Shown here piece after piece: positions 3,202 through 51,905 of a DNA stretch of 64,000 nucleotides. Source of the stretch: Roseococcus pinisoli (GTDB taxonomy: Bacteria > Pseudomonadota > Alphaproteobacteria > Acetobacterales > Acetobacteraceae); NCBI RefSeq assembly GCF_018413645.1, contig NZ_JAHCDA010000001.1:1178001-1242000 (forward strand). The letters run 5' to 3'. The translations under genes were made by a program, and so were the position numbers. Numbering within the stretch: the stretch's first letter is position 1; the number at the start of each line of letters is the position of its first letter. The notes under the pieces are model-generated. The model did no database searches. It had not been told where the DNA came from and saw nothing but the letters and a program-made list of their open reading frames with translations.

Positions 3202-4221
3202 TTATTTCCGGCCGACGAGGCGCTTCAGCGTCGCCACCTGGCGGAAGAAGATCGAGGCGGGCTGCGCCGGGCTTCCCAGCATCCGCGCCTGGGGCGGCAC
3301 ATCGGCGATCACGCCGGCCTGCGCGCCGATCTGCGCGCCCTTGCCGATGGTGAGGTGCCCGGCCATGCCGACCTGCCCGCCGACCTGCACGAAATCCTCC
3401 ACCGTGGTCGAGCCCGAGATGCCGACCTGGGCCACGATGACGCAGTAGCGCCCGAGCTGCACGTTGTGCGCGATCTGCACGAGGTTATCGATCCGCGTGC
3501 CCGCGCCGATCCTGGTATCGCGCGAGGAGCCGCGGTCGATGGTGGTGTTCGCGCCGATCTCGACGTCGTCTTCCACGAGAACCTGGCCCAGATGGGGGAT
3601 GCTGAGGAAGCCCTGCGTCGTGCGGGCGAAGCTGAACCCCTCCTGCCCGATGCGGGCGCCGGGGCAGACATGCACGCGCGCGCCCAGGCGGGCATGGCTG
3701 ATGCTGGCCTGCGCGCCCACCCGGCAATCCGGGCCCAGGACCACGCCGTCGCCGATCACGGCGCCCGGGTCGATGCAGCAGCGCGCGCCGATCTCGGCAT
3801 GGGCGCCGATCGAGACGAAGGCGCCGATGGAGGCCGTCGGGTCGATGATGGCCGTCGGATGGACCGAGGCCAGTAGGTCGATGCCGCCTTCCCGCAGGGG
3901 TAGCGGATGGAACAGTGCCGCGACGCGCGCCCAGGCCCCATAGACCGAGGTGGTGAGGATGGGCACCGCGTGCTTGGGGACCTGGTCGGCGAGATCGGGG
4001 TGGATGAGCACCGCGCCCGCATCGGTCTGCGCCAGCGCCGGCAGGTACCGGCGGTTGTCGAGAAAGCTTACATCGCCGCGCCCGGCCACGTGCAGGGCGG
4101 CCACGCCGCTGAACTGCCGCTCGGTCGCCTGCGAGGAGCCCTCGGCGGCGGCGGTCACGGAGGCGAGGGAATGCGGACCCGATCGCGCGAAGAAGCGCGG
4201 GTCGCCGAGATTGGAAGTCAC
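3202..4221 (-). CDS. lpxD: UDP-3-O-acyl-glucosamine N-acyltransferase LpxD
   Basis: A 339-aa lipid A enzyme that N-acylates UDP-3-O-acyl-GlcN using acyl-ACP in the cytoplasm. Residues 1-100 are the uridine-binding domain. From about residue 105 come many left-handed beta-helix hexapeptides (VHPTAIIDPTASIG, IGANTTIDRG). IAHNVQLG carries the expected catalytic histidine. Size is normal for the family. The GTG start at 4221 begins right where the N-terminal fold starts and has GAAGG about 10 nt upstream; no ATG is near. It is alone rather than in the usual bamA-lpxD-fabZ-lpxA row, so either a second copy exists elsewhere or the genes are scattered. Confidence 0.92.
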   Translation of the reverse strand: MTSNLGDPRFFARSGPHSLASVTAAAEGSSQATERQFSGVAALHVAGRGDVSFLDNRRYLPALAQTDAGAVLIHPDLADQVPKHAVPILTTSVYGAWARVAALFHPLPLREGGIDLLASVHPTAIIDPTASIGAFVSIGAHAEIGARCCIDPGAVIGDGVVLGPDCRVGAQASISHARLGARVHVCPGARIGQEGFSFARTTQGFLSIPHLGQVLVEDDVEIGANTTIDRGSSRDTRIGAGTRIDNLVQIAHNVQLGRYCVIVAQVGISGSTTVEDFVQVGGQVGMAGHLTIGKGAQIGAQAGVIADVPPQARMLGSPAQPASIFFRQVATLKRLVGRK

Positions 4222-4362
4222 GTGAGGCGCCTTCGTGCCGTGCCACGGCAGTCTGACACGATTGGAGATCGGCGGCGAGCGGTGTCGGGGGCCGGCCGCC
4301 TTTCCTTGACAGCAACCCCAGGGGCTCCTGTCGCGTTCCGCCCCGGTGAGGAGATCAATGGC

Positions 4363-5283
4363 ATGGCACAGCGGCCCAGTTGGGAAGGCCACCTGCGGCT
4401 CTCGCTCGTGTCCTGCCCGGTCTCGCTTTATCCGGCCACGAGCTACGCGCGGGACATCCATTTCCACCTGATCAATCCGGAGACGGGCAACCGGATCCGC
4501 CAGATCGTCGTCGACCCCGAGAGCGGCGAGGTGGAGCGCAAGTCGCTCGTCCGCGGCTTCGAGTACGAGAAGGACCAGTACGTCCTGCTCACCGACGAGG
4601 AGATCCGCTCCGTCCGGCTGGAAAGCACGCGCACCATCGATATCGAGCGCTTCGTCGCCGAGGCGGAGATCGACCGCATCTGGTGGGACACGCCCTACTA
4701 CCTCGTGCCGGACGGCAAGGCGGGGCTGGATGCCTATACCGTCATTCGCTCGGCCATGGGCGATGCGGGCAAGGTGGCGCTGGCGCGGGTGGTCATGGGC
4801 ACGCGGGAGCGCGTGGTGGCGATCGAGCCGCGCGGCCGCGGCATGCTGCTGACCACGCTGCGCAGCCGCGACGAGGTGCGTGACGGGGATGCCGTCTTCG
4901 ACGAGATCCCTGAGGCGAAGACCGACCGTCGCATGGTGGAGATCGCCGACAAGATCATCGACCAGCTCGCCGGCGCCTTCGACCCCGACCAGTTCAACGA
5001 CCGCTACGAGGATGCGCTCCGCGCGCTCATCGAGAGCAAGAAGGGCGGCGACGATGGCGGCGTGACGGCGCCGCCGCCGCGCGGCGACAATGTGATCGAC
5101 CTGATGGAGGCGCTGCGGAAGAGCCTCGAGCAGGGCGGCAAGGCGCCCGAGCGCAAGCCGGCGGCCAGGGCCGCCAAGGCCGCGCCCAAGAAGGTCCCCG
5201 CGAAGAAGGCGCCCGTGCAGAAGCCCGCCGCCAAGGCGCCGGCGAAGAAGGCGGCGCCCGCGAAGCGCCGCCGCACGGGGTAG
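4363..5283 (+). CDS. ku: Ku protein for non-homologous end joining
   Basis: A 306-aa bacterial Ku. Residues 5-255 form the Ku core that rings broken DNA ends (start WEGHLRLSLVSCPVSLYPAT; WWDTPYYLVPDGKAG; MVEIADKIIDQL). From about residue 265 there is a Lys/Ala/Pro-rich tail (repeated PAKKAP units ending KRRRTG), as in Ku proteins that bind DNA through a basic extension. GGAG lies a few bases before ATG 4363. The ligD ATG follows after only 4 nt, so both are made from one message. The reading frame is open upstream to 3907 but that part opposes lpxD and is not Ku. Confidence 0.95.
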   Translation: MAQRPSWEGHLRLSLVSCPVSLYPATSYARDIHFHLINPETGNRIRQIVVDPESGEVERKSLVRGFEYEKDQYVLLTDEEIRSVRLESTRTIDIERFVAEAEIDRIWWDTPYYLVPDGKAGLDAYTVIRSAMGDAGKVALARVVMGTRERVVAIEPRGRGMLLTTLRSRDEVRDGDAVFDEIPEAKTDRRMVEIADKIIDQLAGAFDPDQFNDRYEDALRALIESKKGGDDGGVTAPPPRGDNVIDLMEALRKSLEQGGKAPERKPAARAAKAAPKKVPAKKAPVQKPAAKAPAKKAAPAKRRRTG

Positions 5284-5287
5284 CGCC

Positions 5288-7891
5288 ATGGCGGTCTCGG
5301 CGGACAAGCTCGGCACCTATCGCGCCAAGCGCGACTTCTCTCGTTCGCCCGAGCCGCAGGGCGGCGCCTCCAGGCGGTCCAAGGCGGTGCCGCGCCTGGC
5401 TTTCGTCGTGCAGAAGCATGACGCGACGCGTCTGCACTACGACTTCCGTCTCGAATGGGAGGGCGTGCTGAAATCCTGGGCGGTGACGCGCGGGCCGTCC
5501 CTCGATCCAGCCGACAAGCGCCTCGCCGTGCGGGTGGAGGATCATCCACTGGACTACGGAAGCTTCGAGGGCGTGATCCCCGCTCCCGGCTATGGCGCCG
5601 GCACGGTGATGCTCTGGGATCGCGGCTTCTGGGCGCCCCTCGATCCCGAGCATGTCGATCGCGACCTGGCGGCGGGCGAGCTGAAATTCGTGGTGTCCGG
5701 CGAGCGGCTGAAGGGCGGTTTCGTCCTCGTTCGGCTGAAGCCCAAGCCGGGCGAGAAAGCCGGCCGGGAGAACTGGCTGCTCATCAAGGAGAAGGACAGC
5801 ATGGCGACGCCGGGCGAGGGCGACGCCGTGCTGAAGGCGGAGAAATCCGTGAAGACGGGCCGCAGCCTGGCGCAGATCGCGAAGAAGGCGCCCGGGGAGG
5901 ACGAGGTGTGGCATTCCGCGCCCAAGGCGGATCCGGTGGCCGCCTCCGCCAAGCGGGCAGCTTCACCTAAGGCCGCGAAGGCGAAGCCGGAAGGCCTGCC
6001 GGATTTCCTGCCGCCCCAGCTCTGCCAGCTCGTTTCCACCCCGCCAGAGGGCAAGAACTGGATTCACGAGCTGAAGCTCGACGGCTATCGCCTCCAGCTG
6101 CGGGTCGAGAAGGGCAGGGTCGCGCTCCGCACGCGCACCGGCCTCGACTGGACGCAGCGCTTCCCGTCCATCGCGAAGGAGGCGGCCTCGCTGCCGGACG
6201 GGATCATCGATGGCGAGGCGGTCGCGCTCGACGCCGACAACCAGCCCAGCTTCGGCGCGCTGCAGGCGGTGCTGGCGGGCGAGCGCAAGGCGCCGCTGCT
6301 CTACTGGGCCTTCGACCTGCTGCATAACGGAAAGCGCGACCTGCGGTCCGAGACCCAGCTGGCGCGCAAGAAGGCGCTGAAGGCGCATCTCCCCGCCAAG
6401 GGCCAGGCGATCCGCTACCTCGACCACTTCACTCAGCCCGGCGAGGCGGTGCTCGCCAGCGCCTGCCGCCTGCACATGGAGGGCATCGTCTCCAAGCGCG
6501 CCGACGCGCCCTATACCGGCGGGCGGGGCATGGCCTGGACCAAGGCCAAGTGCCGCGGGCGCGACGAGTTCCTCATCGGCGGCTGGTCGCTGGAGAAGCG
6601 GGGGCAGGGCAGGGGCCTCGGCTCGCTGCTGATGGGCGCGATGCGCGACGGCAAGCTCGTCTATATGGGCCGCGTCGGAACCGGCTTTTCCGGCGCGATG
6701 GGCGCGCAGCTGATGGGCAAGCTCGAGCCGCTGCGGCGCAAGACCTCGCCCTTCGTGGGTGCCCAGCCCGCCCGTCTCAGCGACGCTCTCTGGGCCGAGC
6801 CGAAGCTGGTCGCCGAGATCGCCTATGGCGGGCTGACGGAGGAGGGCATCCTGCGCCATGCCAGCTTCCAGGGGCTTCGGGAGGACAAGCCGGCGCGGGA
6901 GGTGACGCCGCCGCCCGAGGCCGCGGCGCCGCCCGCTGCGAAGGCGCCGGCCGCCGCGCAGGCGTCGTCTGCCGCAAGGGCACCGGGCCAGCGCGCGGCT
7001 TCAGGCCCCTCGCTCACCCATCCCGACAAGGTCCTCTGGCCCGCCACCGAGACAACGCCGGCGGTGACCAAGGGCGAGCTTGGCGCCTATTACGCGCGCT
7101 TCGCGGAGCGCATCCTGGCTGAGGTCGCCGGCCGGCCCATCTCCGTGCTTCGCGCGCCGGACGGCATCGGCCATCAGCTCTTCTTCCAGCGCCACGCCAT
7201 GCCGGGCCAGTCGCCGCTGATCCGCGCCGTGCCGATCGAGGGGCAGCCCAAGCCCTATATGCGCATCGACGACGCGGCGGGGCTGGCGGCGCTGGCGCAG
7301 GTCTCCGCCGTGGAGATCCATCCCTGGGGCGCCCGCGCCGATCGGCCCGAGACGCCCGATCGCCTGATCTTCGACCTCGATCCCGCGCCGGAGCTCGGCT
7401 TCGACGCGGTGGTGAAGGGCGCGCTGGAGCTGCGCGAGCGGCTGAAGGGCTATGGCCTTGCCGCCTTCCCGCGGGTGACGGGCGGCAAGGGGCTGCATCT
7501 GGTCGTGCCGCTGGCCGTGCCGGCGCGGGGAGAAGCGCCGGACTGGCCCCAGGCCAAGCAGTTCGCCCGGCTGGTCTGCGCGATGATGGAGCAGGATGCG
7601 CCGAAGCTCTACACCACCACCATGGCCAAGAAGGCGCGCACGGGCCGCATCTTCCTCGACTATCTGCGCAACGACCGGCTTTCGACCGCCATCGCCAATT
7701 GGTCGCCGCGCGGGCGCGAAGGGGCGCCGGTGGCACATCCGATCAAGTGGGCCGAGGTGAAGCCGGGGCTTGATCCGGCCGGGCTTCGCCTACCGGCCCT
7801 GCTGGAGGCGCCGCTGCCGAAGGATCCCTGGACGGGCTTCGATGCTGCGGCCGGGTCGCTGCGCGAGGCGATGGAGAAGGCGACGAGGTAG
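5288..7891 (+). CDS. ligD: Multidomain DNA ligase D (phosphoesterase-ligase-polymerase)
   Basis: An 867-aa end-joining enzyme with the Pseudomonas-type domain order. The 3'-phosphoesterase spans residues ~20-165 (HDATRLHYDFRLEW, VEDHPLDYGSFEG). An Ala/Lys linker follows. The ATP-dependent ligase spans ~230-540, with nucleotidyl lysine K263 in LKLDGYR. A second Ala-rich linker leads to the archaeo-eukaryotic primase-type polymerase, ~575-855 (LTHPDKVLWP; catalytic DLDP). It fills gaps, trims 3' ends and seals breaks held by Ku. It is cotranscribed with ku. Its last 57 bases recur, slightly diverged, at 10012-10068. Confidence 0.95.
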   Translation: MAVSADKLGTYRAKRDFSRSPEPQGGASRRSKAVPRLAFVVQKHDATRLHYDFRLEWEGVLKSWAVTRGPSLDPADKRLAVRVEDHPLDYGSFEGVIPAPGYGAGTVMLWDRGFWAPLDPEHVDRDLAAGELKFVVSGERLKGGFVLVRLKPKPGEKAGRENWLLIKEKDSMATPGEGDAVLKAEKSVKTGRSLAQIAKKAPGEDEVWHSAPKADPVAASAKRAASPKAAKAKPEGLPDFLPPQLCQLVSTPPEGKNWIHELKLDGYRLQLRVEKGRVALRTRTGLDWTQRFPSIAKEAASLPDGIIDGEAVALDADNQPSFGALQAVLAGERKAPLLYWAFDLLHNGKRDLRSETQLARKKALKAHLPAKGQAIRYLDHFTQPGEAVLASACRLHMEGIVSKRADAPYTGGRGMAWTKAKCRGRDEFLIGGWSLEKRGQGRGLGSLLMGAMRDGKLVYMGRVGTGFSGAMGAQLMGKLEPLRRKTSPFVGAQPARLSDALWAEPKLVAEIAYGGLTEEGILRHASFQGLREDKPAREVTPPPEAAAPPAAKAPAAAQASSAARAPGQRAASGPSLTHPDKVLWPATETTPAVTKGELGAYYARFAERILAEVAGRPISVLRAPDGIGHQLFFQRHAMPGQSPLIRAVPIEGQPKPYMRIDDAAGLAALAQVSAVEIHPWGARADRPETPDRLIFDLDPAPELGFDAVVKGALELRERLKGYGLAAFPRVTGGKGLHLVVPLAVPARGEAPDWPQAKQFARLVCAMMEQDAPKLYTTTMAKKARTGRIFLDYLRNDRLSTAIANWSPRGREGAPVAHPIKWAEVKPGLDPAGLRLPALLEAPLPKDPWTGFDAAAGSLREAMEKATR

Positions 7892-8001
7892 CGGTGATGA
7901 GGCGCGCTCCGGCGTCTGAGGAAACTTACGCCGGCAGCCACTTTTCTTGACGCGCCATCCCCGCGCTTCCTAAGCATCGCCGCTCACGAGGAGGCCCCCA
8001 G

Positions 8002-8019
8002 GGGCAGCCCGCGCTGCCC
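8002..8019 (+). other. Hairpin in the leader of the TPR gene
   Basis: GGGCAGC (8002-8008) and GCTGCCC (8013-8019) form a perfect 7-bp stem with a 4-nt loop, 34 nt before ATG 8054. The space 7892-8053 between ligD and this gene also holds a TTGACG motif that could be a -35 box. No function is proven. Confidence 0.35.
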
Positions 8020-8053
8020 GCCCATGGCGCCTCCGTTCGAAGAGGTCACGGCC

Positions 8054-9658
8054 ATGCGTCACGCGACCCTTGCGAGACTGACCCTCGCGGCCGGGCTGGG
8101 GCTCGCCAGCCTCACCCCTCCCTTCGCCCATGCCCAGACGGCCGATGCGCCGGCCCCGCACCGCATGCTCGGCACCGTGAACTTCCCGGTGACCTGCAGC
8201 CCTGCGGCACAGGCCGATTTCAACCACGGCATGCTGCTGCAGCATTCCTTCTGGTACCAGGTCGCCGGTGAGACCTTCCGGCAGGTCCGTCAGCAGGATC
8301 CGGGCTGCACCATGTCCTATTGGGGTGAGGCGCTGACCTTGCTCACCAACCCCTACAGCCCGCCCTCGGCCCAGAACCTGCGCCAGGGCCGGGCGCTGCT
8401 GGAGGAGGCGAAGCGCCTGGGCGCGCGCAGCCCGCGCGAGGCGGCCTATGTCGAGGCGCTGGCGCTGGTCTTCGCCGGCGACGATCCGCCCGGCCATCGC
8501 GCGCGGCTCGTGGCCTATCGCGACGCGATGGGCCGGCTGCACGAGCGCTTCCCGGACGACAAGGAAGGGATGATCCAATACGCGCTGCTGCTCGGCGTGG
8601 CCTCCTCGCCGGGTGACCGCACCTATGCCGATCCGCTGCGCGGCGCCGCCATGCTGGAGCGCGAGCTGGTGCTCCAGCCCGAGCATCCCGGCATCGTCCA
8701 CTACCTGATCCATCTCTACGACTATCCGGCCCTGGCCAATCGCGGCATCCGCGCCGCCGAGCGCTACGGCACGCTCGCCGCCGACGCGCCGCATGCGCAG
8801 CACATGCCCTCCCACATCTACACGCGCGTGGGCCGCTGGGGGGATTCCGTCGAGAGCAACACCCGTGCTGCAGAGCTGGCGCTTCGCAATCGCGAGGCTG
8901 ACGATGCGCTGCACGCCTATGACTACATGGTCTATGCCTATCTGCAGACCGGCCGTGACGACGCGGCGCGCGAGGCGATGCAGCGGGCCGTCTCGGCGCG
9001 TTTCGATGGCCCCACCCGCAACGCCTATGCCTTCGCCATGGCCGCGATCCCTGCGCGCTTCGCCCTGGAGCGAGGCGCCTGGGCCGATGCCGCCGCGCTC
9101 CAGCCGCGCCCCGAATCCAGCTTCGCTTATACCGAGGCGCTGACCCATTTCGCGCGCGCGATCGGTTTCTCCCGCCTGGGCCGGCCCACCGAAGCGACGA
9201 CCGACATCGCCGCCCTCGGCCGCATCGCCCAATCCCTGGAAGGGCGTGACGCCTATTGGTCGGAGCAGGTGGCGATCCAGCGCGCCGCCGCCGCAGGCCT
9301 GCAGGAATTCATGGCGGGCCGGCGCGAGGAGGGGCTCATCGCCCTGCGCGCCGCGGCCGACCGCGAAGGCCGTACCGACAAGCACGTCATCACACCGGGA
9401 CCGCTGGCCCCGGCGCGCGAGCTCTATGCCGAGGCGCTGCTGGAAGCAGGGCAGGCGCCGGCGGCTCTCATCGAATTCGAGGCCGTGCAGCGGACCGAGC
9501 CGCGTCGTTTCCACGCCATCGCCGGGGCCGCCCGCGCGGCCGAGGCGGCGGGGCAGCCCGATCAGGCGCGGCAGTACTACGCCGCGCTGCTCGACATAGC
9601 GGGGGATGGTGGAGGCCGGGCCGAGGTGGTGGCGGCCAGGGCCTATCTGGGGCGCTGA
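8054..9658 (+). CDS. Exported TPR-repeat protein with conserved histidine motifs
   Basis: A 534-aa protein with a signal peptide (MRHATLARL, hydrophobic core, cleavage near AHAQ-TAD). The mature part is helical and TPR-like throughout. Two histidine-rich blocks stand out near residues 215-260: HPGIVHYLIHLYDYP and PHAQHMPSHIYTRVG. I recall these blocks from a widespread proteobacterial TPR family of unknown role. They could bind metal; that is inference. ATG 8054 is preferred over 8024 because GAAGAGG lies 9 nt before it and the signal peptide begins there. The gene lies between ligD and a feoB remnant and may be cargo of a variable locus. Confidence 0.7.
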   Translation: MRHATLARLTLAAGLGLASLTPPFAHAQTADAPAPHRMLGTVNFPVTCSPAAQADFNHGMLLQHSFWYQVAGETFRQVRQQDPGCTMSYWGEALTLLTNPYSPPSAQNLRQGRALLEEAKRLGARSPREAAYVEALALVFAGDDPPGHRARLVAYRDAMGRLHERFPDDKEGMIQYALLLGVASSPGDRTYADPLRGAAMLERELVLQPEHPGIVHYLIHLYDYPALANRGIRAAERYGTLAADAPHAQHMPSHIYTRVGRWGDSVESNTRAAELALRNREADDALHAYDYMVYAYLQTGRDDAAREAMQRAVSARFDGPTRNAYAFAMAAIPARFALERGAWADAAALQPRPESSFAYTEALTHFARAIGFSRLGRPTEATTDIAALGRIAQSLEGRDAYWSEQVAIQRAAAAGLQEFMAGRREEGLIALRAAADREGRTDKHVITPGPLAPARELYAEALLEAGQAPAALIEFEAVQRTEPRRFHAIAGAARAAEAAGQPDQARQYYAALLDIAGDGGGRAEVVAARAYLGR

Positions 9659-9674
9659 GGCGAGAGGGGCGCGC

Positions 9675-9999
9675 CTACCCCGCGCCCAGGAAACTCGCCG
9701 TCTGGAAGGTTACGAAGGCGGCGGCATAGGCCAGCGCGAGCATGTAGCCGAAGGTGAACCAGGCCCAGCCGCGGCTCCCCGTCTCGCGCCGGATCACGGC
9801 CAGCGTCGCCGCGCATTGCGGGGCGAAGATGTACCAGGCGAGGAAGGCCAGCGCCGTCGCCAACGACCATTTGCCCGAGAGCGCGCTGCCATGCAGGGAA
9901 CGAGGGTAACGCCGATCTGCCAGTTGAAGCCGATGAGGCGCAGCACGGGCTCCACGGCGGTGCCGATGGAATAGGCGAAGCTGTATTCGATGGCCGGCT
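9675..9999 (-). pseudogene. Truncated feoB 3'-end remnant
   Basis: On the minus strand this encodes the last ~70 residues of FeoB in frame (ending TFQTASFLGAG, with its own TAG stop at 9675-9677). It then lacks the 79 bp corresponding to 14541-14619 and continues out of frame to 9999. Positions 9681-9890 match intact feoB 14331-14540 with only four differences in 210 bp. Three of these are silent and one is Ala for Val. Positions 9891-9999 match 14620-14728 more loosely (about 7 differences, most near the deletion). There is no start and no G domain, so it cannot make FeoB. It is a recombination scar rather than a gene. Confidence 0.88.
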
Positions 10000-10011
10000 C
10001 TCGACCCGGCC

Positions 10012-10068
10012 GGGCTTCGACGATGCGGGCGGGTCGCTGCGCGAGGCGGTGGAGAAGGCGACGAGGTA
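10012..10068 (+). pseudogene. Remnant of a second ligD 3' end
   Basis: These 57 bases match the end of intact ligD (7834-7890) with four differences. They still spell the ligD tail in frame (GFDDAGGSLREAVEKATR, then TAA instead of TAG). The fragment is fused directly to the feoB remnant at about 10000-10011. No upstream ligD sequence is present. Confidence 0.8.
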
Positions 10069-10082
10069 AGCCACGCTACCTT

Positions 10083-10105
10083 ATTGCGAATAACTATCAG
10101 TTGCG
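10083..10105. promoter_or_regulatory. Putative Fur box before fecI
   Basis: An AT-rich stretch containing TTGCGAATAACTATCAGTTG lies about 45-65 nt upstream of the fecI ATG in otherwise GC-rich DNA. It shares GCGAAT with the sites at 53-71 and 16532-16549 and resembles Fur sites found before FecI-type sigma genes. The palindrome is imperfect. Iron control is inferred. Confidence 0.5.
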
Positions 10106-10147
10106 GGAAAAGGTTGAAACCGCTGCGTCCGGATTCGCCATCGCGCC

Positions 10148-10654
10148 ATGTCGTCCCCTCGCTTCGCCCTGTTGGCGGCCTTCCAGCGCCATTCCGGCGA
10201 GGTGATGCGCATGCTGCGCCGCCGTGGCGCCGCGCTCGAGGTTGCGGAGGACCTGCTGCAGGAATCCTTCCTTCGCCTCATGAAGGTGCAGCCTGGCGAG
10301 GCCGTCCGGGACGCCCGGGCCTATCTTCATCGCACCGCCCGTAACCTCATGATCGATGGCGAGCGCCAGGAACGCCGCTCGCCGTTGATGCACCTAACCG
10401 AGGAGCAGCGTGCGGCAGTTCCGGGCCTGGCGCCGGCGGCCGACCACATTCTGATTGCCCGGGAGGAGCTCAAGCGGCTGCGCTGGATCATCGAACAGCT
10501 GCCACGCCGCCAGCGGGAGGTCTTTACCTTGCACCGCCTCGAAGGCCTTTCGCCGGACGAGATCGCGCGCCGGCTCGGCATCTCGCGCAACATGGTCGAT
10601 CGCCACCTGCGGCTGGCGCTGGAGACTTGTGTCGAAAGGTTCTCGGAACCTTGA
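10148..10654 (+). CDS. FecI-like ECF sigma factor
   Basis: A 168-aa extracytoplasmic-function sigma factor of the FecI type. Region 2 covers ~10-75 (EDLLQESFLRLMK, YLHRTARNLMID). Region 4 covers ~110-162 (LPRRQREVFTLHRLEGLS, then the helix-turn-helix IARRLGISRNMVDRHL). It should direct RNA polymerase to the downstream receptor gene once released by the FecR-like protein at the membrane. It is followed by fecR and a TonB receptor with a signalling domain, which makes a complete surface-signalling set. The leader carries a likely Fur box. The cognate siderophore cannot be told from sequence. Confidence 0.92.
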   Translation: MSSPRFALLAAFQRHSGEVMRMLRRRGAALEVAEDLLQESFLRLMKVQPGEAVRDARAYLHRTARNLMIDGERQERRSPLMHLTEEQRAAVPGLAPAADHILIAREELKRLRWIIEQLPRRQREVFTLHRLEGLSPDEIARRLGISRNMVDRHLRLALETCVERFSEP

Positions 10655-10677
10655 CGGAGGGGGTGGGGCGGCTCGCT

Positions 10678-11637
10678 ATGCGCATGGAGGCGCAATTGGG
10701 CGATCAGCGTGACGCAGCGATCAGGAGTGAGGCAGCCGCCTGGGTGCTGCGCCTCGATGCGCCCGAGGCGAGCGCCGCGGACGGTGTCGCCTGTGAAGAA
10801 TGGCTCGCGCGCGACCCCCGTCACGCCCGGGCCTTCCGCGAGGCTCAGCTCGTATTTCACGGTGCGTGCCATGCCCTGCGCCTTTCCGCGCCAGTGCGTC
10901 GGCCGGCCTTGCGGCGGCGTTCCGCCTGGATGGCCTCGGCCGTCGTTGCCGCCGGTATCCTTCTCTTTTTTACCCTGGACGGTCCGGTTCGGTTGCAGGC
11001 CGATGTGGTCGCCGGCCTTGATGAGCAGCCGACCCTGACCTTGCCCGACGGCTCGACCGTCCAGCTGGATTCCGCGTCGGCCATTGCCGTCACCTTCGAT
11101 GCGACGCGCCGTGACGTGCGCCTGCTGCGTGGAGAGGCCTATTTCCGTGTCGTCGCTGATGCCGGGCGCCCCTTCACCGTGCAGGCAGCGGGTGGATCGA
11201 GCACCGCGCTCGGCACCGAATTCGACGTCAGGCTGATGGCTGAAGGCGCCGAGGTCGGCGTCATGCAGCACGCCGTCCGTGTCGTTGCCCCCGTCTCCGG
11301 CGGACCAGCCCAGGAGGCCACGCTCCGCGAGGGGCAGCAGGTCGTCTATGGCAGCGATGGTCGTCTCGGCGCGATCCGAGGTGCGGATCCTGCCGCGATC
11401 GCGGCCTGGCGCGGCGGCACGCTGGTCGTGGAGAACGCCACCCTGGCCTCGGTGGTGGAGCGCCTGGGCCGGCGCACGCGCACCCGTATCGTTATCGCGA
11501 CCGATACCCTGGCCCGGCGGCGCATCAGCGGCAGCTTCGATATCAGCGATCCTCTGGCGGCGTTGACAGTGCTGGAGCGCACCCTCGGCATCGGATCCAC
11601 TCGCCTGGGCGGGCTGGTCATCGTCCTGCACAGCTGA
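10678..11637 (+). CDS. FecR-like transmembrane anti-sigma regulator
   Basis: A 319-aa inner-membrane regulator. The N-terminal cytoplasmic DUF4880 part (AAAWVLRLDAP, CEEWLARDPRHARAF) binds the sigma factor. One membrane helix lies at ~76-93. A periplasmic FecR domain follows (LPDGSTVQLDSASAI, LLRGEAYFRVV), then a C-terminal DUF4974 domain (SGSFDISDPLAALTVLE). The frame is open to a TTG at 10627 that would overlap fecI. ATG 10678 gives a normal N-terminus, with the GGAGG at 10656-10660 rather far upstream, so the exact start is uncertain (ATG 10684 is also possible). Confidence 0.88.
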   Translation: MRMEAQLGDQRDAAIRSEAAAWVLRLDAPEASAADGVACEEWLARDPRHARAFREAQLVFHGACHALRLSAPVRRPALRRRSAWMASAVVAAGILLFFTLDGPVRLQADVVAGLDEQPTLTLPDGSTVQLDSASAIAVTFDATRRDVRLLRGEAYFRVVADAGRPFTVQAAGGSSTALGTEFDVRLMAEGAEVGVMQHAVRVVAPVSGGPAQEATLREGQQVVYGSDGRLGAIRGADPAAIAAWRGGTLVVENATLASVVERLGRRTRTRIVIATDTLARRRISGSFDISDPLAALTVLERTLGIGSTRLGGLVIVLHS

Positions 11638-11737
11638 AATTTTTCGACTTCGCCACGTCCCGGAATTCCGATCCGCGTCGTCCTGATGAAGGAGGGGTCA
11701 TGAACTCGGCCCCGATGTCTCGGGTTTTGGGGGATCG

Positions 11738-14158
11738 ATGTTGGTTTCGAAGGATCAGGCCGCCGCTTGGCGCAGTCGGATGGGACTCGCCCTGCGCGTC
11801 GCACTGTTGGGGACGACGCTGCTCGCCGGGGGAGGCGTCGTGCTTGCGCAGGCGCAGACGGTTGCGCCGGCGATTGCCATCGCGGTACCGCCGGGGCCTC
11901 TCGCTCAGGCGCTGAACCGCCTCGCCGGGCAGACCGGGCTGCAGATCGTCTATGACGCCGCGCTGGCCGAGGGCCGCACCTCCCCCGGCGCTTCAGGCAG
12001 CCTCACCCCATCCCAGGCGCTGGAGCGCGTTCTGATCGGCACCGGCCTCATGCATAGCCTTGCTGGTGGCAACGTGGTGCGGCTGCAGCCGATTCCGGGA
12101 CCCGAGAGCGCCGTCAGCCTGCCGCAGATGGAGGTGACGGGGCAGGCCGCGCCCTCCACGGCGATGATCGGAAATCTTCCGCGCCCCTATGCGGGCGGCC
12201 AGGTCGCGACGGGGGGACAACTCGGCCTGCTCGGCAATCGCTCGATCATGGACACGCCCTTCAGCGCCACGAACTACACGGCCGAAACCATCCGCAACAC
12301 GCAGGCGCGCAGCCTTGCTGACCTCATGATCAATGAGCCCTCGGTCCGTATGGTCTCGCCCGTCTCGAACGGCAGCGAGGTCTTCAACATGCGGGGCTTC
12401 TCCGTGGCCAATCAGGATGTGGCCTTCGGTGGGCTCTTCGGCATTCTGCCCTTCTGGCGCGGTTCCGTCGCCTCGGCCGAGCGTGTGGAAGTGCTGCGCG
12501 GGCCGAACGCTCTGCTGAACGGCATGTCGCCCAGCGGCGCGAGCGGTGGCGCCATCAATCTCGTTCCGAAGCGGGCCGACGACATCGCGCTCACGCGCGT
12601 TACCGCCAACTACATTTCCGGCTCAAATTTCGGAGGCGCCTTCGACGTCGGCCGGCGCTTCGGCACGGACAACCGCTTCGGTGCGCGGATCAACGGCGTC
12701 TATCGCGATGGCGACTACAGCCGAACCTCCCAGCAGCATGGCGAGGTGACCGGCGGCTTCGACTGGCGCGGCGATCGTGCCCGCCTCTCGCTCGACATCG
12801 GTTGGCAGCAGGAGCGTCAGCAGGGCACCGAGGGGCTGATGGGCCTTGCCGCGAATCTCCCGCGCCCACCCACGGCGCCGAATGCGACGCGCAGCATGTA
12901 CCAGCCCTGGACATTCTGGAACAGCGATGCGGTCTATGGCGTGCTGCGCGGCGAATACGACATCGCGCAGGATGTCACGGCCTATGGCGCCTTCGGCGGG
13001 CGGCACTACACCTCGCAATACATCCTGCCTTTCGGTCAGAACCTTCAGGGCAACGGCGCCTTCACCGAGAACGCGATCTACAACAACGAATACTACGATG
13101 CGATCAGCTCAGAGGTCGGAATCCGCGGCCGCGTGCAGACCGGGCCGGTCGTGCATCGCCTGAGCCTGGCCGGCACCTATGTCGAGCAGACCTCCGGCGT
13201 GGTCGGGGCAAGCTTGTCGCCCCTCTCGTCCAACATCTATTCACCGAGGCTGACGTCCCGGCCGAACCTGCCGATCCTGCCGGGCATTCCGCGTACGGGC
13301 TATCTTGCGATGACCAGCATCGCCGTGGCGGACACGATGTCCTTCCTGGACGAGCGCGTGAACGTGACGGCGGGCCTGCGCCAGCAATACGTCCGCTCGC
13401 GCAGCTACAGTGCGGTCAGTGGCGTACGCACGGCCGCGTACAGCCAGGATGCGCTCACGCCGGTCGTGGGTCTTGTGGTGAAACCCTGGCGCAACGTCTC
13501 AGTCTACGCGAACTATATCGAGGGCCTGAGCCAGGGTGGAATGGCGCCGGCCGGCACGCGCAATGCGGGCGAGATCCTCGCCCCCTTCGTTGCCAATCAG
13601 TACGAGGTCGGCGTGAAGGTGGATTGGGGCAACGTCACCACCACCCTGGCGGCCTTCCAGATCACCCGGCCCAGCAGTTTCACCGATCCGGCCACTAACT
13701 TCTTCGTTTCCAACGGCGAGCAGCGGAACCGTGGCCTGGAGTTCAACGCCTTCGGCGAGGCCTGGCCCGGCGTGCGTCTGCTGGGCGGCGCCATGTACAT
13801 GGAAGCCGAGTTGACCAGCACGGCGGGTGGCGCGCTGAACGGCCGCAGCGCGGTGAATGCGCCGCGCTGGAGCCTCAATCTTGGCGGCGAGTGGGACACG
13901 CCCTTCGTGCCCGGGCTGACCCTTTCCGGCCGCGTGATTCACACCGCGTCGGCCTATCTGAACCAGCAGAACACCCAGCGCATTCCCGACTGGACGCGGT
14001 TCGACATCGGCGCCCGCTACCGCTTCCAGACGACACGTGGCCCGATCACGCTGCATGCCAATATCGAGAACCTGTTCGACAAGAACTACTGGATGTCGAG
14101 CTCGCTCTATCGTGGCGCGCCCCGGACTTTCCTGTTCGCGGTCAGCGCGGATTTCTGA
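11738..14158 (+). CDS. TonB-dependent siderophore receptor with N-terminal signalling domain
   Basis: An 806-aa outer-membrane receptor. A signal peptide ends near residue 38 (LAQAQT). An STN signalling domain spans ~45-105 (IAVPPGPLAQALNRLAGQTG), the plug ~155-280 (MRGFSVANQDVAFGG, VEVLRGPNALLNGMSPSG), and the 22-strand barrel the rest, with the expected terminal phenylalanine (VSADF). The STN domain should touch the FecR-like protein in the periplasm and report ligand binding. The plug and barrel layout is that of ferric-siderophore receptors. ATG 11738 has a GGGGGA ribosome site. The 100 nt before it are free of genes. Confidence 0.92.
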   Translation: MLVSKDQAAAWRSRMGLALRVALLGTTLLAGGGVVLAQAQTVAPAIAIAVPPGPLAQALNRLAGQTGLQIVYDAALAEGRTSPGASGSLTPSQALERVLIGTGLMHSLAGGNVVRLQPIPGPESAVSLPQMEVTGQAAPSTAMIGNLPRPYAGGQVATGGQLGLLGNRSIMDTPFSATNYTAETIRNTQARSLADLMINEPSVRMVSPVSNGSEVFNMRGFSVANQDVAFGGLFGILPFWRGSVASAERVEVLRGPNALLNGMSPSGASGGAINLVPKRADDIALTRVTANYISGSNFGGAFDVGRRFGTDNRFGARINGVYRDGDYSRTSQQHGEVTGGFDWRGDRARLSLDIGWQQERQQGTEGLMGLAANLPRPPTAPNATRSMYQPWTFWNSDAVYGVLRGEYDIAQDVTAYGAFGGRHYTSQYILPFGQNLQGNGAFTENAIYNNEYYDAISSEVGIRGRVQTGPVVHRLSLAGTYVEQTSGVVGASLSPLSSNIYSPRLTSRPNLPILPGIPRTGYLAMTSIAVADTMSFLDERVNVTAGLRQQYVRSRSYSAVSGVRTAAYSQDALTPVVGLVVKPWRNVSVYANYIEGLSQGGMAPAGTRNAGEILAPFVANQYEVGVKVDWGNVTTTLAAFQITRPSSFTDPATNFFVSNGEQRNRGLEFNAFGEAWPGVRLLGGAMYMEAELTSTAGGALNGRSAVNAPRWSLNLGGEWDTPFVPGLTLSGRVIHTASAYLNQQNTQRIPDWTRFDIGARYRFQTTRGPITLHANIENLFDKNYWMSSSLYRGAPRTFLFAVSADF

Positions 14159-14159
14159 T

Positions 14160-14324
14160 CGTGCCAGGCGGCCGAAGGGCACGACGATATCTGTCGCCCC
14201 TCGACGCCTTTGCCGTCACTGACGGGCGTGAAACTCTCGGGTGATCCACAATACGGTCGATCAAGTGCGGCTCCTTCCAGGGAGCCCGTCCTGCGTGCGG
14301 TGAGACCGCCTTATCGGGGCGCCA
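14160..14324. other. Gene-free gap between receptor and feoB stops
   Basis: The 165-nt space between convergent genes has only a weak hairpin right after the receptor stop (CGTGCC 14160-14165, GGCACG 14178-14183). I see no T-tract terminator. Homology with the copy at 9675 stops at the feoB stop codon, so this gap marks one edge of the duplicated stretch. Confidence 0.4.
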
Positions 14325-16220
14325 TTATCCCGCGCCCAGGAAACTCGCCGTCTGGAACGTCACGAAGGCGGCGGCATAGGCCAGCACGAGCATGTAGCCG
14401 AAGGTGAACCAGGCCCAGCCGCGGCTCCCCGTCTCGCGCCGGATCACGGCCAGCGTCGCCGCGCATTGCGGGGCGAAGATGTACCAGGCGAGGAAGGCGA
14501 GCGCCGTCGCCAACGACCATTTGCCCGAGAGCGCGCTGCCGAGCTCGGCCGAATCATCGTCCGACGCCTCGATCGAATAGACCGTGCCGAGGGCCGCCAC
14601 CGCCACCTCGCGCGCCGCCATGCCGGGAATGAGCGCGACGCCAATCTGCCAGTTGAAGCCGATGGGGCGCAGCACGGGCTCCACGGCGGTGCCGATGGAA
14701 TAGGCGAAGCTGTATTCGATGGCCGGCTGCGTCGCGCCCTCGGGCGGACGCGGGACGGAGGAGAGGAACCAGATCACCATCATCATCGCCAGGATGATGG
14801 TGCCGGCGCGCCGCAGGAAGGCGCGCGCGCGCTGCCAGAGCCCGATCGCCACGTCGCGCACGCGGGGCCATTTGTAGTCCGGCAGCTCGAGCATGAAGGG
14901 ATCGCTCGCCTCCCGGCGCCAGAGCAGCCGACGGAAGACGAAGGACATGCCCAGCGCGCTCAGGATGCCCACAGCATAGAGGCCGAACATCACGAGGCCC
15001 TGCAGGCCGATCCAGCCCCAGACCTTCTGGTCCGGGATGAAGGCCGCGATGATCAGCGTGTAGACGGGAATGCGCGCCGAGCAGGTCATCAGCGGCGCCA
15101 CCAGGATCGTCGCCAGGCGATCGCGCCGGTTGTCGATCACGCGTGTCGCCATGATGCCGGGGATGGCGCAGGCGAAGCTGGAAAGCAGCGGGATGAAGGC
15201 GCGCCCATGCAGCCCGGCGCCGCCCATGATGCGGTCCATCAGGAAGGCGGCGCGCGCCATGTAGCCGAAATCCTCCAGCAGGAGGATAAAGAGGAAGAGG
15301 ATCAGGATCTGCGGCAGGAAGACGAGCACGCCGCCCACGCCGGCGATCAGCCCGTCCTGCAGGAAGCTGCGCAGCAGGCCGAGCCAGCCTTCCTCCGGCA
15401 GGAGGGAGCCGACCAGGACGCCCAGCGCCTGGAAACTGCCGTCGATCAGGTCCATCACCGGTTCGGCCCAGGCGAAGACGGCCTGGAACATCAGGAAGAG
15501 CACCGCGAGCAGGACCACGATGCCGCCCACCGGGTGCAGCACCACCGAATCCAACCGGCGCGTCAGCGCGTCGCGGCGGTCCGGCACGCGGACGGCCACG
15601 GCGACGAGGCGGTCGGCCTCGCGCTGGAGGGCGCGCAGCTCCGCCGCATCGGGCGCGGTCCAGGGCGAGGAAGGGGTTTCGGGCCGGCGTGCCGACTGGC
15701 TGTCGAATTCCGCGAGGAGGGCGGCGGTGCCGCCGCGCCGCACGGCGACGGAGGTGACGACCGGCAGCCCGAGCTCTGCGGAAAGCCGCTCGAGGTCGAT
15801 CTCGATGCCGCGGTGCCGGGCGATGTCGATCATGTTCAGCGAGAGCAGCAGCGGCACGCCGGTGCGCTTCAGCTCCAGCACCAGGCGAAGGCCGAGGCGC
15901 AGGTTGGTAGCATCCGCCACGCAGACCAGCAGGTCCGGGCGCGGTTCGCCCCGGCGCTGGCCCAGCACGATGTCGCGCGTGATGGCCTCGTCGGGGCTGC
16001 GGGCACGGAGCGAATAGGTGCCGGGCAGGTCGGTCAGGCGCACCTGGCGGCGGCCCGGCGTGGCCAGCGTGCCCACCTTCCGCTCGACGGTGACGCCGGG
16101 ATAATTCGCCGCGCGCTGATGACTGCCGGTGAGCGCGTTGAACAGCGCGGTCTTGCCGCAATTGGGATTGCCCACCAGGGCGACCGAGAAGCCCTGCTGC
16201 GTGGCGGAAAGCTCGTTCAT
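14325..16220 (-). CDS. feoB: Ferrous iron transporter FeoB
   Basis: A 631-aa inner-membrane Fe(II) permease with an N-terminal GTPase. G1 is GNPNCGKTA, G3 DLPGTYS, G4 NMID. A helical linker follows to about residue 230, then the membrane core (residues 235-630) with the two Gate-type repeats. It is shorter than E. coli FeoB (773 aa) but of a length common in alphaproteobacteria. ATG overlaps the feoA TGA (ATGA at 16217-16220). Its last part is duplicated at 9675-9999. It lies tail-to-tail with the receptor gene, with 166 nt between. Confidence 0.95.
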   Translation of the reverse strand: MNELSATQQGFSVALVGNPNCGKTALFNALTGSHQRAANYPGVTVERKVGTLATPGRRQVRLTDLPGTYSLRARSPDEAITRDIVLGQRRGEPRPDLLVCVADATNLRLGLRLVLELKRTGVPLLLSLNMIDIARHRGIEIDLERLSAELGLPVVTSVAVRRGGTAALLAEFDSQSARRPETPSSPWTAPDAAELRALQREADRLVAVAVRVPDRRDALTRRLDSVVLHPVGGIVVLLAVLFLMFQAVFAWAEPVMDLIDGSFQALGVLVGSLLPEEGWLGLLRSFLQDGLIAGVGGVLVFLPQILILFLFILLLEDFGYMARAAFLMDRIMGGAGLHGRAFIPLLSSFACAIPGIMATRVIDNRRDRLATILVAPLMTCSARIPVYTLIIAAFIPDQKVWGWIGLQGLVMFGLYAVGILSALGMSFVFRRLLWRREASDPFMLELPDYKWPRVRDVAIGLWQRARAFLRRAGTIILAMMMVIWFLSSVPRPPEGATQPAIEYSFAYSIGTAVEPVLRPIGFNWQIGVALIPGMAAREVAVAALGTVYSIEASDDDSAELGSALSGKWSLATALAFLAWYIFAPQCAATLAVIRRETGSRGWAWFTFGYMLVLAYAAAFVTFQTASFLGAG

Positions 16221-16486
16221 GTCAGGGGCTCGACGAGGATGGCGGCTGCCTCGCGCCGCCGGAGGGCGATGGTGGCCGATTGCAGGCGGATCGCGATCGG
16301 GTCGCCGCCGAAGAGGCCCTGGTGGAGGATCTCCACCAGCGCGCCCTCGACGAAGCCGAGCTCGATCAGCCGCCGCTCGAGCTCCTCGGGATCCAGGCCG
16401 CCTGAGGGAAGTGGACGGAGGCCGAGGATGCGGCCGCGAAAGCCGGGCCGGGCGGAACCGAGATGTGCGGTGATGAGGAGGGACAT
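16217..16486 (-). CDS. feoA: FeoA family protein
   Basis: An 89-aa cytoplasmic protein with the SH3-like FeoA fold: RLIELGFVEGALVEILH and PIAIRLQSATIALRRREAAAI match the family. It supports FeoB in ferrous iron uptake. It is upstream of and overlaps feoB by 4 nt, so the two are cotranscribed. A GCGAAT-containing AT-rich site lies about 46-63 nt upstream of its ATG. Confidence 0.88.
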   Translation of the reverse strand: MSLLITAHLGSARPGFRGRILGLRPLPSGGLDPEELERRLIELGFVEGALVEILHQGLFGGDPIAIRLQSATIALRRREAAAILVEPLT

Positions 16487-16569: not shown

Positions 16570-17061
16570 CTATGCCGCGAGGGCACCCCGGCCGAGTACC
16601 TGCGCGGCGAGGCGGGCGAGGGTATCGCTGGTCGCCTTTTCCTCGTGGAAGGCACGATCGAGAAGCAGGGCGATATCGGGCCGCGCCAGGGCCTTGGCCC
16701 AGGTGACCAGGGTCTGGTACCGCGCCATCTGGTAGTAGGCCACGGCCTGGGCACAGGCGATGAGGCCGGCATCGTGCAGGGGAGCGGGCTCGTCGATCTC
16801 CGAGAGCTGGTATTCGCCGTCCTGCAGCAGGCCCAGCATCGCGTCCGAGCTGTCGCCGCAGACGGCGCTGCCCAGCATCCGGAAGACCCCGCGAAGGCGT
16901 TCCTGCCGTTCCTGCGCGACCTCCTGCTGGCGCTCGAATGCACCGCGAAGCGCGTCGTGGTGTGCGGCGCGGGCCATGCGGGGCAGGGCCTTCAGCACCT
17001 GCTGATCGGCGAAATGGATTTCGCGGAGGACCGACAGGAACAGGTTGTCGAGGGAAGGCAT
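16570..17061 (-). CDS. YciE/YciF family (DUF892) ferritin-like stress protein
   Basis: A 163-aa helical protein of the DUF892 family, which folds like ferritin and carries a di-metal site. It starts MPSLDNLFLSVLREIHFADQ, the family's typical opening, and has the paired acidic/His residues EIHFAD, FERQQE and AVAYYQMARY. YciF proteins are induced by osmotic and oxidative stress. A longer open frame reaches 17169, but ATG 17061 gives the family N-terminus and has GGAAAAG before it. It neighbours a catalase and small membrane proteins, consistent with a stress cluster. Confidence 0.85.
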   Translation of the reverse strand: MPSLDNLFLSVLREIHFADQQVLKALPRMARAAHHDALRGAFERQQEVAQERQERLRGVFRMLGSAVCGDSSDAMLGLLQDGEYQLSEIDEPAPLHDAGLIACAQAVAYYQMARYQTLVTWAKALARPDIALLLDRAFHEEKATSDTLARLAAQVLGRGALAA

Positions 17062-17121
17062 GGATCTTTTCCGGCTGCGGCGCCGCGCGGCAAAATCCCG
17101 CGGCGCTTCAGGGTACTTCGT

Positions 17122-17155
17122 AGAAAACGCGCCGGCGGTTACCCGCCGGCGCGTT
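17122..17155 (-). terminator. Strong intrinsic terminator
   Basis: A perfect 13-bp stem (17126-17138 with 17143-17155, GC-rich with AA/TT ends) and a 4-nt loop are followed on the minus strand by TTTTCTA. It lies 20 nt beyond the stop of the membrane protein gene at 17175 and separates it from the yciF-like gene. Confidence 0.85.
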
Positions 17156-17174
17156 CTGTCGCGCAACAATCCGA

Positions 17175-18074
17175 TCAGTGATGATCGTCGCGCAGGCTGC
17201 CGCCATAGGCCGCACCGGCCGAAGCGACGAAGGCGCCGATCAGCATGGCGAGCGCGGTGAAGAGAGCCAGCTTGGCCGCGGCCTTGCGGGCCGTGTCCGC
17301 CGCCTCCTGCGCACGCTGCGCCGCCTCGCGGGCCTTGGTGAAGGTCTGGTCGACGCGCGTGCGGGCATCATCCACCGAAACGCCGGTCCGCGCGGCCACC
17401 AGCTGCGCGAGGTAGTCGCGGTCGCCCGCGGGCAGCTGGCCCGTCGAGATCGCATTGGCGACGATGGTCATCACCTCCTGCGTCGCCTGCTCGTTGGTCT
17501 CGCCGTTCGGATTGGGAGCGTTGGTGCCGCCGGGCTGCGCCGAGCGGAACAGCGTGTCCATGTCGTAAGGCGACACGGCGCCGGCCACACTGGAAGCAAC
17601 CTGCGTCGCACCCTCGCCGACCGAACCGGCCACCCGGCCCGCGGTGCTCACTGCGCCCGTGACCGCCGAGGCCAGGAGGCCCACGGTGAAGAGCGTGGCG
17701 ATGGCCCAGGCCAGCAGGCCATGCGCCGTGTCGCGGAAGAAGACCTCGTCGTGATGCACGGACAGCCAGCGCGTGCGCAGACGGCCGGTCACGTAGCCGC
17801 CGACGCCCGAGGCCACCCATTGCACGACGATGAGCCAGACCACCGTCATCAGCCCGAGCGTGCCGGCCGAGATGCCTTCGTCATGCCAGGGCGAGATGGA
17901 CGAGAAGCCGAGGCCCGCGCCGACCGCGATCAGGATGAGCGAAGCCGCGCAGGCGACAACGGCACCCGCGATGATGGCCGCCCAGGAGACTGCGGATTGC
18001 TCGGGAGCTGCGGCGTCTCCCACCACGACGGCGCCTGTGCGCGGCCGTGCCGGATCATAGGTGCTGCTTGACAT
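17175..18074 (-). CDS. Multi-pass membrane protein of unknown function
   Basis: A 299-aa protein I do not recognise by name. Four clear membrane segments lie at about residues 29-55, 70-95, 117-142 and 272-295. The first two are Gly/Ala-rich (AAIIAGAVVACAASLILIAV). Between helices 3 and 4 is a soluble part with a helical, Ala/Arg/Glu-rich stretch (residues 245-270) likely to form a coiled coil. ATG 18074 is 3 nt after the stop of the 25-aa miniprotein gene, so the two form one unit ended by the terminator at 17122-17155. Context (YciF, catalase) suggests a stress-induced envelope role; this is inference. Confidence 0.75.
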   Translation of the reverse strand: MSSSTYDPARPRTGAVVVGDAAAPEQSAVSWAAIIAGAVVACAASLILIAVGAGLGFSSISPWHDEGISAGTLGLMTVVWLIVVQWVASGVGGYVTGRLRTRWLSVHHDEVFFRDTAHGLLAWAIATLFTVGLLASAVTGAVSTAGRVAGSVGEGATQVASSVAGAVSPYDMDTLFRSAQPGGTNAPNPNGETNEQATQEVMTIVANAISTGQLPAGDRDYLAQLVAARTGVSVDDARTRVDQTFTKAREAAQRAQEAADTARKAAAKLALFTALAMLIGAFVASAGAAYGGSLRDDHH

Positions 18075-18077
18075 GGC

Positions 18078-18155
18078 CTAGTGCCAGATCAGGGCGAGAA
18101 TGATGATGATCGGAATTGGCACGCCGAGAAGCCATAAAAGAATGCCGCGTCCCAT
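18078..18155 (-). CDS. 25-aa hydrophobic membrane miniprotein
   Basis: The short frame ATG 18155 to TAG 18078 encodes 25 residues: [13 protein letters not shown], then [12 protein letters not shown]. It is a single membrane helix with a kink-forming VPIP centre. A perfect AGGAGG ribosome site lies 6 nt before the ATG. Only 3 nt separate it from the downstream membrane protein gene. I recall near-identical 25-30-aa ORFs in other alphaproteobacteria, but no function. Size, ribosome site and spacing make it very likely to be translated. Confidence 0.75.
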
Positions 18156-18373
18156 GGTCGCCTCCTGTTGAAGTATTTCCTCTCGGCAAACGGCAAGGGC
18201 TGTCAGGAGTTGCACCGTGGCGTGGCGACTTCGCGAGATGTGGCCGCGCTATCACGACCTTCGGGCGTATTGCCGCCGGGAAACCTTCCCTCGTCGTGGC
18301 ACGATGTTTGGGGGCATTTGCGACAAATCCGCCGAAGGCGCGTTCCCCCTACTTGCCGAGGAGGAAGCCCCGC

Positions 18374-20537: not shown

Positions 20538-20613
20538 TGGTGGAGCTGAGCGGGATCGAACCGCTGACCTCGTCATTGCGAACGACGCGCTCTACCAACT
20601 GAGCTACAGCCCC
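20538..20613 (-). tRNA. tRNA-Ala (anticodon CGC)
   Basis: On the minus strand the 76-nt sequence folds into a full cloverleaf. The acceptor stem is GGGGCTG with CAGCTCC, and CCA is encoded. The D arm is GCTCAGTTGGTAGAGC, the anticodon loop TTCGCAA (anticodon CGC, reading GCG), and the T arm contains GGTTCGATCCC. It lies between katE and the YggT gene. Confidence 0.95.
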
Positions 20614-42507: not shown

Positions 42508-42570
42508 AGGCCGCCGCTCACTGAACCGGCCCCGCCCATCGGCCGGAGACAACAACTGGAGAAGTCCCTT

Positions 42571-43548: not shown

Positions 43549-43623
43549 CGCCGACACCTGTTCGGCCATCGGCCAACCTCGGCCTCCCCCGTCCGTTATG
43601 GGGGAAGGATGGAGGAATGGCCG

Positions 43624-44100: not shown

Positions 44101-44217
44101 TCACGGAGGAGTCCGGCCGCAGGACGGCCGGCGCCGCCCACTCGCCGCAGGGATGGCGCGCCGGTGCCGCGCCGAAGCCCAGGCGGCGGAGCCGCCGCCC
44201 GGCGTCCGAGGGCAATT
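44101..44217 (+). repeat. Dispersed ~110-bp GC-rich repeat, copy A
   Basis: This sequence between the VOC and trxA genes matches, in inverted orientation, the stretch 51788-51905. Shared blocks include GGCCGGCGCCGCCCA, GGCGCGCCGGTG, GCGAAGCC-AGGCGGC (near match), CCGCGCCCGGCGTC (near match) and GAGGGC-AA at the end. It does not precede a gene on its own strand. Confidence 0.7.
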
Positions 44218-51787: not shown

Positions 51788-51905
51788 GGCTTGGCCCTCA
51801 GACGCCGGGCGCGGTCTTCGGCCGCCTGGCTTCGCCGCGCCACCGGCGCGCCAAGCCGGGAGGTCGGTTGGGCGGCGCCGGCCGCCTTGCGGCCGGGCAT
51901 CGCGG
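51788..51905 (-). repeat. Dispersed ~110-bp GC-rich repeat, copy B
   Basis: It fills most of the 136-nt gap between the amgK stop and the murU start. Read on the minus strand it aligns along its length with 44101-44217, with a few small indels. Its last bases, GCGTCTGAGGGC, supply the only plausible ribosome site for murU. Confidence 0.7.

Follow-up and report, generated by a model that had tools for sequence, protein, structure and literature searches.

Partial copies of feoB and ligD border a siderophore receptor cassette in Roseococcus pinisoli and suggest insertion by a single crossover

The closest described precedents for the locus analysed here come from conjugation tests in Escherichia coli, in which PCR diagnosed a partial duplication of the homologous segment in 56 of 60 Lac-negative clones, 14 of which were sequenced (PMC3240628). 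In the sections of that report on which we draw, the partial duplications are explained by trimming, recircularisation and a single crossing-over, and four of the 60 clones are put down to homology-facilitated illegitimate recombination, a route expected by the authors to delete recipient sequence. Homology-facilitated illegitimate recombination is also proposed, in the parts consulted of a study of Vibrio cholerae T6SS loci, for added modules with displaced remnants (PMC5361080), and a three-species comparison, as excerpted, sees illegitimate recombination behind much of the small-scale diversity (PMC2884548). As for the cargo, the relevant systems are the FecI-FecR-FecA cassettes, with FemA, FecA and FpvA as solved receptors, in which an ECF sigma factor, a FecR protein and a TonB-dependent receptor with an STN domain are encoded in a row.

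The locus in R. pinisoli shares with the E. coli partial duplications a truncated duplicate that is joined to foreign DNA and a full segment on the other side, and the duplicate, about 404 bp before it suffered a deletion, compares with 109-950 bp for those sequenced in E. coli; the E. coli work, as described there, used a laboratory plasmid of known parts, whereas we deal with a natural event and a presumed donor (PMC3240628). With the V. cholerae T6SS loci, in the account given of them, it shares a new module beside an old one, remnants of displaced genes and a conserved flank that anchors the foreign DNA; those modules encode effector-immunity pairs of which whole immunity genes remain, whereas here a receptor cassette stands beside non-coding scraps of two flanking genes (PMC5361080). 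The scar is thus of a known kind, in which recombination leaves broken end-pieces of both neighbours. A literature search for ligD, feoB and Acetobacteraceae together found no paper, and among the matches listed for Roseococcus genomes and FeoB, as judged from titles and abstract openings, there was nothing on the ligD-feoB locus.

The ligD-feoB interval and its scar

The window, i.e. the whole 64-kb stretch of DNA analysed, sits on a 1.78-Mb contig of a 4.79-Mb genome in 12 contigs. The left flank of the interval consists of ku, encoding the NHEJ protein Ku (3907-5283, plus strand; Pfam PF02735, E 5e-45), and an intact ligD (5288-7891, plus strand), the product of which has the Pfam LigD_N, ligase and LigD_Prim-Pol domains. 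The right flank consists of an intact feoB (14325-16220, minus strand; TIGR00437 above cut-off) and its neighbour feoA on the same strand (16217-16486; Pfam PF04023). Past feoA, a DUF892 gene, an ORF of 299 aa that lacks a Pfam match and a long catalase gene occupy 16570-20470. The space between ku-ligD and feoAB is taken up by a TPR-like gene, which we regard as the older cargo (8024-9658, plus strand), a scar at 9666-10069 and a fecI-fecR-receptor cassette at 10148-14158. Pfam confirmed the identities of ligD, fecI, fecR, the receptor gene and feoB; the TPR-like protein gave a sub-threshold match to TPR_8 only (E 1.5e-4, below cut-off) and no NCBIfam hit.

The scar is made up of two relics. 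A repeat search that was given no coordinates found that 9666-9890 repeats 14316-14540 directly (96% of 225 nt), that 9881-9999 repeats 14610-14728 (93% of 119 nt) and that 10005-10068 repeats 7827-7890 of ligD (91% of 64 nt). The offsets of the two feoB repeats, 4650 and 4729, differ by exactly 79 bp, and the corresponding gap fits best after one of positions 9887-9890. The first relic, feoB' (9666-9999), is accordingly a decayed duplicate of the terminal ~404 bp of feoB (14325-14728) with a 79-bp deletion, as delineated by repeat search and alignment; the same homologous segment is thereby present at both borders in direct orientation, feoB' being on the minus strand like feoB. The second relic, 'ligD (10000-10069), is on the plus strand like ligD and includes the ligD stop codon. 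In a self-BLAST of the window, which returned eight off-diagonal matches, the two feoB matches were the strongest and the ligD match was fifth equal by bit score; at 83.8 bits it far exceeds the maximum of 32.2 in 1000 dinucleotide shuffles. Thus, the repeat anatomy reported in the initial annotation is real, and the order ligD, TPR, feoB', 'ligD, fecI-fecR-receptor, feoB that it had proposed is borne out by the repeats and by Pfam, with the TPR assignment below threshold.

The left end of 'ligD calls for more caution. In ligD a 9-bp repeat occurs at 7780 and 7833, a spacing of 53 bp, and the relic probably starts at ~10000 and has lost the 53 bp between the two copies, with the deletion at 10011-10019. 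The first ~11 bp of the relic were assigned by position together with a 14-bp exact match between 7775 and 10006, which at 28.2 bits (against the shuffle maximum) is alone within chance. With this assignment the two relics abut at ~9999/10000, and at the joint they share at most about 5 bp, as judged by eye. We rejected feoB' as a working gene because it is truncated and carries deletions and replacements.

Relatives and the origin of the cargo

In a genus sample of 21 genomes, that of R. pinisoli included, this feoB was found at E <= 1e-100 in four, again including R. pinisoli, and in all four it adjoins ligD in converging orientation. The three others differ in what the interval holds. G016 has ligD-feoB with no gene between and a spacer of about 275 bp; G006, evidently Roseococcus sp. 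SYP-B2431, has ligD-TPR-feoB; and in G017, likewise the MAG 'Rubritepida sp. RYN_446', the order is ligD-TPR-(solute-binding protein)-feoB, with a gene (L067:1512-3098, minus strand) added separately between TPR and feoB, the product of which matches GsiB- and NikA-type models below their cut-offs. The TPR-like protein is 87% identical at the amino acid level in both G006 and G017, where its gene lies beside ligD; the G016 homologue (75%) is encoded on another contig between serS-like and cydA-like genes. The ligD-feoB spacer of G016 is 66-68% identical to the ligD-TPR spacers of G006 and G017 over 130-170 bp. The fecIR-receptor cargo is absent from the interval in all three genomes. In a wider survey of 80 feoB loci, some of which ended at contig ends, Ku, ligD or TPR was near feoB in two, i.e. 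L151 (= G017) and L169 (= G006).

These gene orders, all of which lack the fecIR-receptor cassette, show TPR-feoB to be the old junction. Moreover, the window can be matched to G006 without a break over the ligD-TPR spacer, the TPR-like gene and most of the way into feoB' (7900-9875, 83%), so that feoB' occupies the ancestral place of feoB and feoB'|'ligD is the new joint. Compared with G006, no loss of recipient sequence is seen at the scar. The clade seems to gain genes in the ligD-feoB gap and to keep TPR rather than to exchange cargo, a reading based on four genomes, of which G016 and G017 are 86-89% complete.

The cargo itself has the makeup of a FecI-FecR-FecA cassette: an ECF sigma factor (fecI, 10148-10654; Pfam Sigma70_r2/r4, below the NCBIfam FecI cut-offs), a FecR-type regulator (fecR, 10678-11637, with a likely ATG start at 10678; Pfam FecR, E 4e-18, and below the NCBIfam FecR cut-off, both with a query that began 9 bases before this ATG) and a TonB-dependent siderophore receptor (11738-14158; TIGR01783 above cut-off) with STN, plug and barrel domains follow each other in this order on the plus strand. 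The best solved relative of the receptor is the ferric-mycobactin receptor FemA (E 2e-186). Judging from these domains, which show nothing unusual compared with described cassettes, the three proteins probably make up a conventional siderophore receptor and the surface-signalling pair that belongs to it. The leader of fecI (10070-10147, plus strand) contains at ~10082-10105, just past the ligD relic, a putative Fur-box-like sequence, as judged by eye. A second fecI-fecR-receptor cassette is present in the R. pinisoli genome (G000 contig 1, 826-830 kb; L072); its receptor is 45-46% identical to that of the cargo, and before its fecI a sequence likewise resembles a Fur box, by eye.

Relatives of the cargo are distant. 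Outside the locus, receptor homologues in the genus at E <= 1e-60 reach only 40-46%, the best being the paralogue in R. pinisoli itself (46%, contig position 827886) and the other a G008 homologue (40%). Among 299 genomes of the family, 60 match at E <= 1e-100 and the nearest receptor, in G082 of another genus, is 77% identical; the fecI and fecR beside it are only 31% and 34% identical to those of the cargo. No ligD or feoB homologue was found near the G082 receptor in the 19.5 kb examined, nor in the stretches that surround the G055 and G307 receptors. In 385 genomes of the class the receptor was found at E <= 1e-200 in R. pinisoli only, and in 395 genomes of the order fecI was found at E <= 1e-45 in R. 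pinisoli only, the 394 others giving no match. At the DNA level, the 20 other genus genomes gave no match to the cargo above about 180 nt, the longest (66-70%) being in G008. The GC content is 66.5% for the receptor gene, 67.1% for fecI, 54.4% for the leader (54% over 10069-10147) and 69.7% for fecR, versus 71.1% for the window. Together, the distant relatives of receptor and fecI, the short DNA matches and the lower GC content fit acquisition from outside the sampled genus.

We rejected the idea that the cargo is borne by a mobile element: none of the four proteins encoded between ligD and feoB belongs to a transposase or recombinase family by Pfam or NCBIfam. Neither does the locus adjoin a tRNA gene, the sole one in the window being at 20538-20613.

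Mode of insertion and alternatives

Any account of the locus needs a ligD end to the left of the cargo and a feoB end to its right, with 91-96% identity to the genes present in the window. We suggest that the block from ~10000 to 14728 (~4.7 kb, comprising 'ligD, fecIR-receptor and the 3' end of feoB) is an insertion made by single-crossover integration of a trimmed and circularised fragment, an account to which we give slightly better than an even chance. Specifically, (i) a recipient with the order ligD-TPR-feoB, as supported by the relatives, would have received DNA of a close relative with the order ligD-fecIR-receptor-feoB, (ii) trimming of this fragment would have reached into ligD on one side and into feoB on the other, and its ends would have been joined to give a circle, (iii) a single homologous crossover in the final 404 bp of feoB would have brought the circle in, rebuilding a whole feoB on the right and leaving on the left a truncated feoB' that ends exactly at the join to 'ligD, and (iv) both relics would later have decayed, with deletions of 79 bp and probably 53 bp. 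Insertion of such a trimmed circle produces precisely the observed map and at once restores feoB. The sequence itself shows neither the crossover point nor the joint of the circle. As expected of a single-crossover scar, relatives have an uninterrupted locus (ligD-TPR-feoB in G006, ligD-feoB in G016). The scar is therefore, in this reconstruction, the left border of the ~4.7-kb block that entered feoB and rebuilt it.

The donor locus itself was sought in several ways. DNA and receptor searches of the 21 genus genomes found no ligD-fecIR-receptor-feoB locus; a scan of genome contigs with the receptor confirmed none among 21 stretches that matched a pattern; 86 of 72,556 plasmid records matched, none covering 80% and all at 60-80% identity; and a scan of viral contigs with feoB gave one distant hit at 46%. 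The initial annotation had proposed a tandem join of two alleles, ligD-TPR-feoB and ligD-fecIR-receptor-feoB, and had named single-cargo loci in relatives as what to look for. This remains the best reading, with the mechanism refined here: the topology and the TPR-only locus of G006 agree with it, and G016 adds a locus with neither cargo, but the second allele, with fecIR-receptor only, is in none of the three other genomes with this locus and was not seen in the wider searches, in which the surroundings of family receptors were examined for G082, G055 and G307.

The substitutions in the relics bear on how the donor copy arrived. At the best gap placement, feoB' differs from feoB at 13 of 325 sites (8 silent, 5 replacement); a MAFFT alignment, in which the gap is placed less well, has a 14th difference, silent and gap-dependent, at 14616. 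Between 'ligD and ligD, 59 compared sites show 5 differences, of which 2 are silent. Polarisation by parsimony with the three relatives puts eight changes on feoB' (4 silent, 4 replacement) and four, all silent, on feoB, with one open; the strict version, in which the three relatives agree, leaves seven on feoB' (3 silent, 4 replacement) and two on feoB. Two of the four feoB changes, at 14358 and 14325, have the same state in G017 and may be homoplasies. That polarised changes are all silent on intact feoB and half replacements on feoB' speaks for the donor model, whereas the divergence of the copies (both relics) is explicable by decay alone and the uneven spread of changes along feoB', six in 109 versus two in 216 sites with the cluster in the second segment (Fisher P 0.019, post hoc), is not predicted by it; this spread might reflect gene conversion. 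Identity to relatives shows no clear shift between the 3' part and the rest of intact feoB (G017 being covered only from about nt 500). Under neutrality 71-75% of changes on feoB' should be replacements, and at most four of eight or four of seven have P 0.12-0.18 and 0.25-0.34, respectively. These values are compatible with a neutral feoB', so the silent changes in its best-preserved part, from which a time of selection before the joining had been read, fall short of establishing one. The count behind that reading, three silent of four differences, is right for 14331-14540, but 14325-14540 has six differences, and its four sites give P 0.05-0.08 for a stretch chosen as best preserved.

The unrejected neutral decay of feoB' would also suit an origin of the relics as local copies. 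In this account a segment from the end of ligD through TPR to the end of feoB was duplicated in tandem with an illegitimate joint, and the second TPR was then replaced by fecIR-receptor. In the MAFFT alignment the two feoB copies indeed agree at 311 of 325 sites, whereas agreement with the three relatives reaches no more than 288 of 325. However, because no remnant of another TPR gene or of TPR spacers was found beside the cargo, a second event is needed that replaced the whole stretch between the stop codons of ligD and feoB, and the four sites mentioned above, as a marginal sign of earlier selection, also weigh against it; we consider local duplication unlikely, if still worth keeping in view. 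Rather less likely, in our judgement, is homology-facilitated illegitimate recombination in which a similar donor supplied a linear fragment, with one end homologous in feoB and the other joined illegitimately inside the recipient feoB. It would yield a similar final map and, in the sections cited, is the mechanism proposed for the V. cholerae T6SS arrays (PMC5361080), but a deletion in the recipient is what the E. coli authors predict in the text available to us (PMC3240628), whereas here the homologous end is duplicated.

No two of the four genomes have the same interval: it is without a gene in one, holds TPR in another, TPR and the binding protein in a third, and TPR, the scar and fecIR-receptor in R. 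pinisoli. Such variety fits the earlier proposal of a swap site for whole iron-uptake cargo, with two alternatives side by side in the window. This view did not hold up well, and we now regard it as very unlikely: TPR is present in three of the four genomes, the genes look added rather than exchanged, the G016 TPR homologue is located elsewhere, and two of the three cargoes, the TPR-like and the GsiB/NikA-like proteins, are not recognised iron-uptake proteins, all this on a basis of four genomes. An assembly artefact or a chimera of two strains, which the 12-contig state of the assembly brings to mind, is the least credible account and highly improbable. The relics carry substitutions (13/325, 5/59) and deletions of their own, which make a simple assembly duplication unlikely, the short overlap at their joint argues in the same direction, and the contamination estimate is 0.93%.

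Returning to single-crossover insertion, a broader version of it would make the ligD-feoB gap of the Roseococcus clade a recurrent capture site, where neighbours supply linear DNA that is made circular, perhaps through Ku-LigD, and enters by one feoB crossover, so that cargo piles up between the converging genes. Ku and LigD join DNA ends; that they are coded at the site of the scar is, as far as the evidence goes, a coincidence, and we regard recurrent capture as improbable. If true, the feoB repeats would let the fecIR-receptor cassette be lost in one step.

While it leaves the knowledge of iron uptake unchanged, the scar is a readable fossil of the addition of a receptor cassette to a chromosome at an interval with no transposase or integrase gene, in which the two relic ends would tell the layout of the donor locus and where its ends were joined. 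Should a relative with fecIR-receptor only between ligD and feoB exist, the locus would be a natural integration of the kind seen in the E. coli conjugation tests.

The window contains other repeats in addition to those of the scar. Four direct-repeat matches of 63-168 nt with 76-83% identity lie at 40615-43367, within or beside an ORF of 1041 aa on the minus strand (40834-43959) that has no Pfam match, and a pair of inverted repeats of ~100 bp, 83% identical and 7.6 kb apart, lies at 44113-44213 and 51794-51896.
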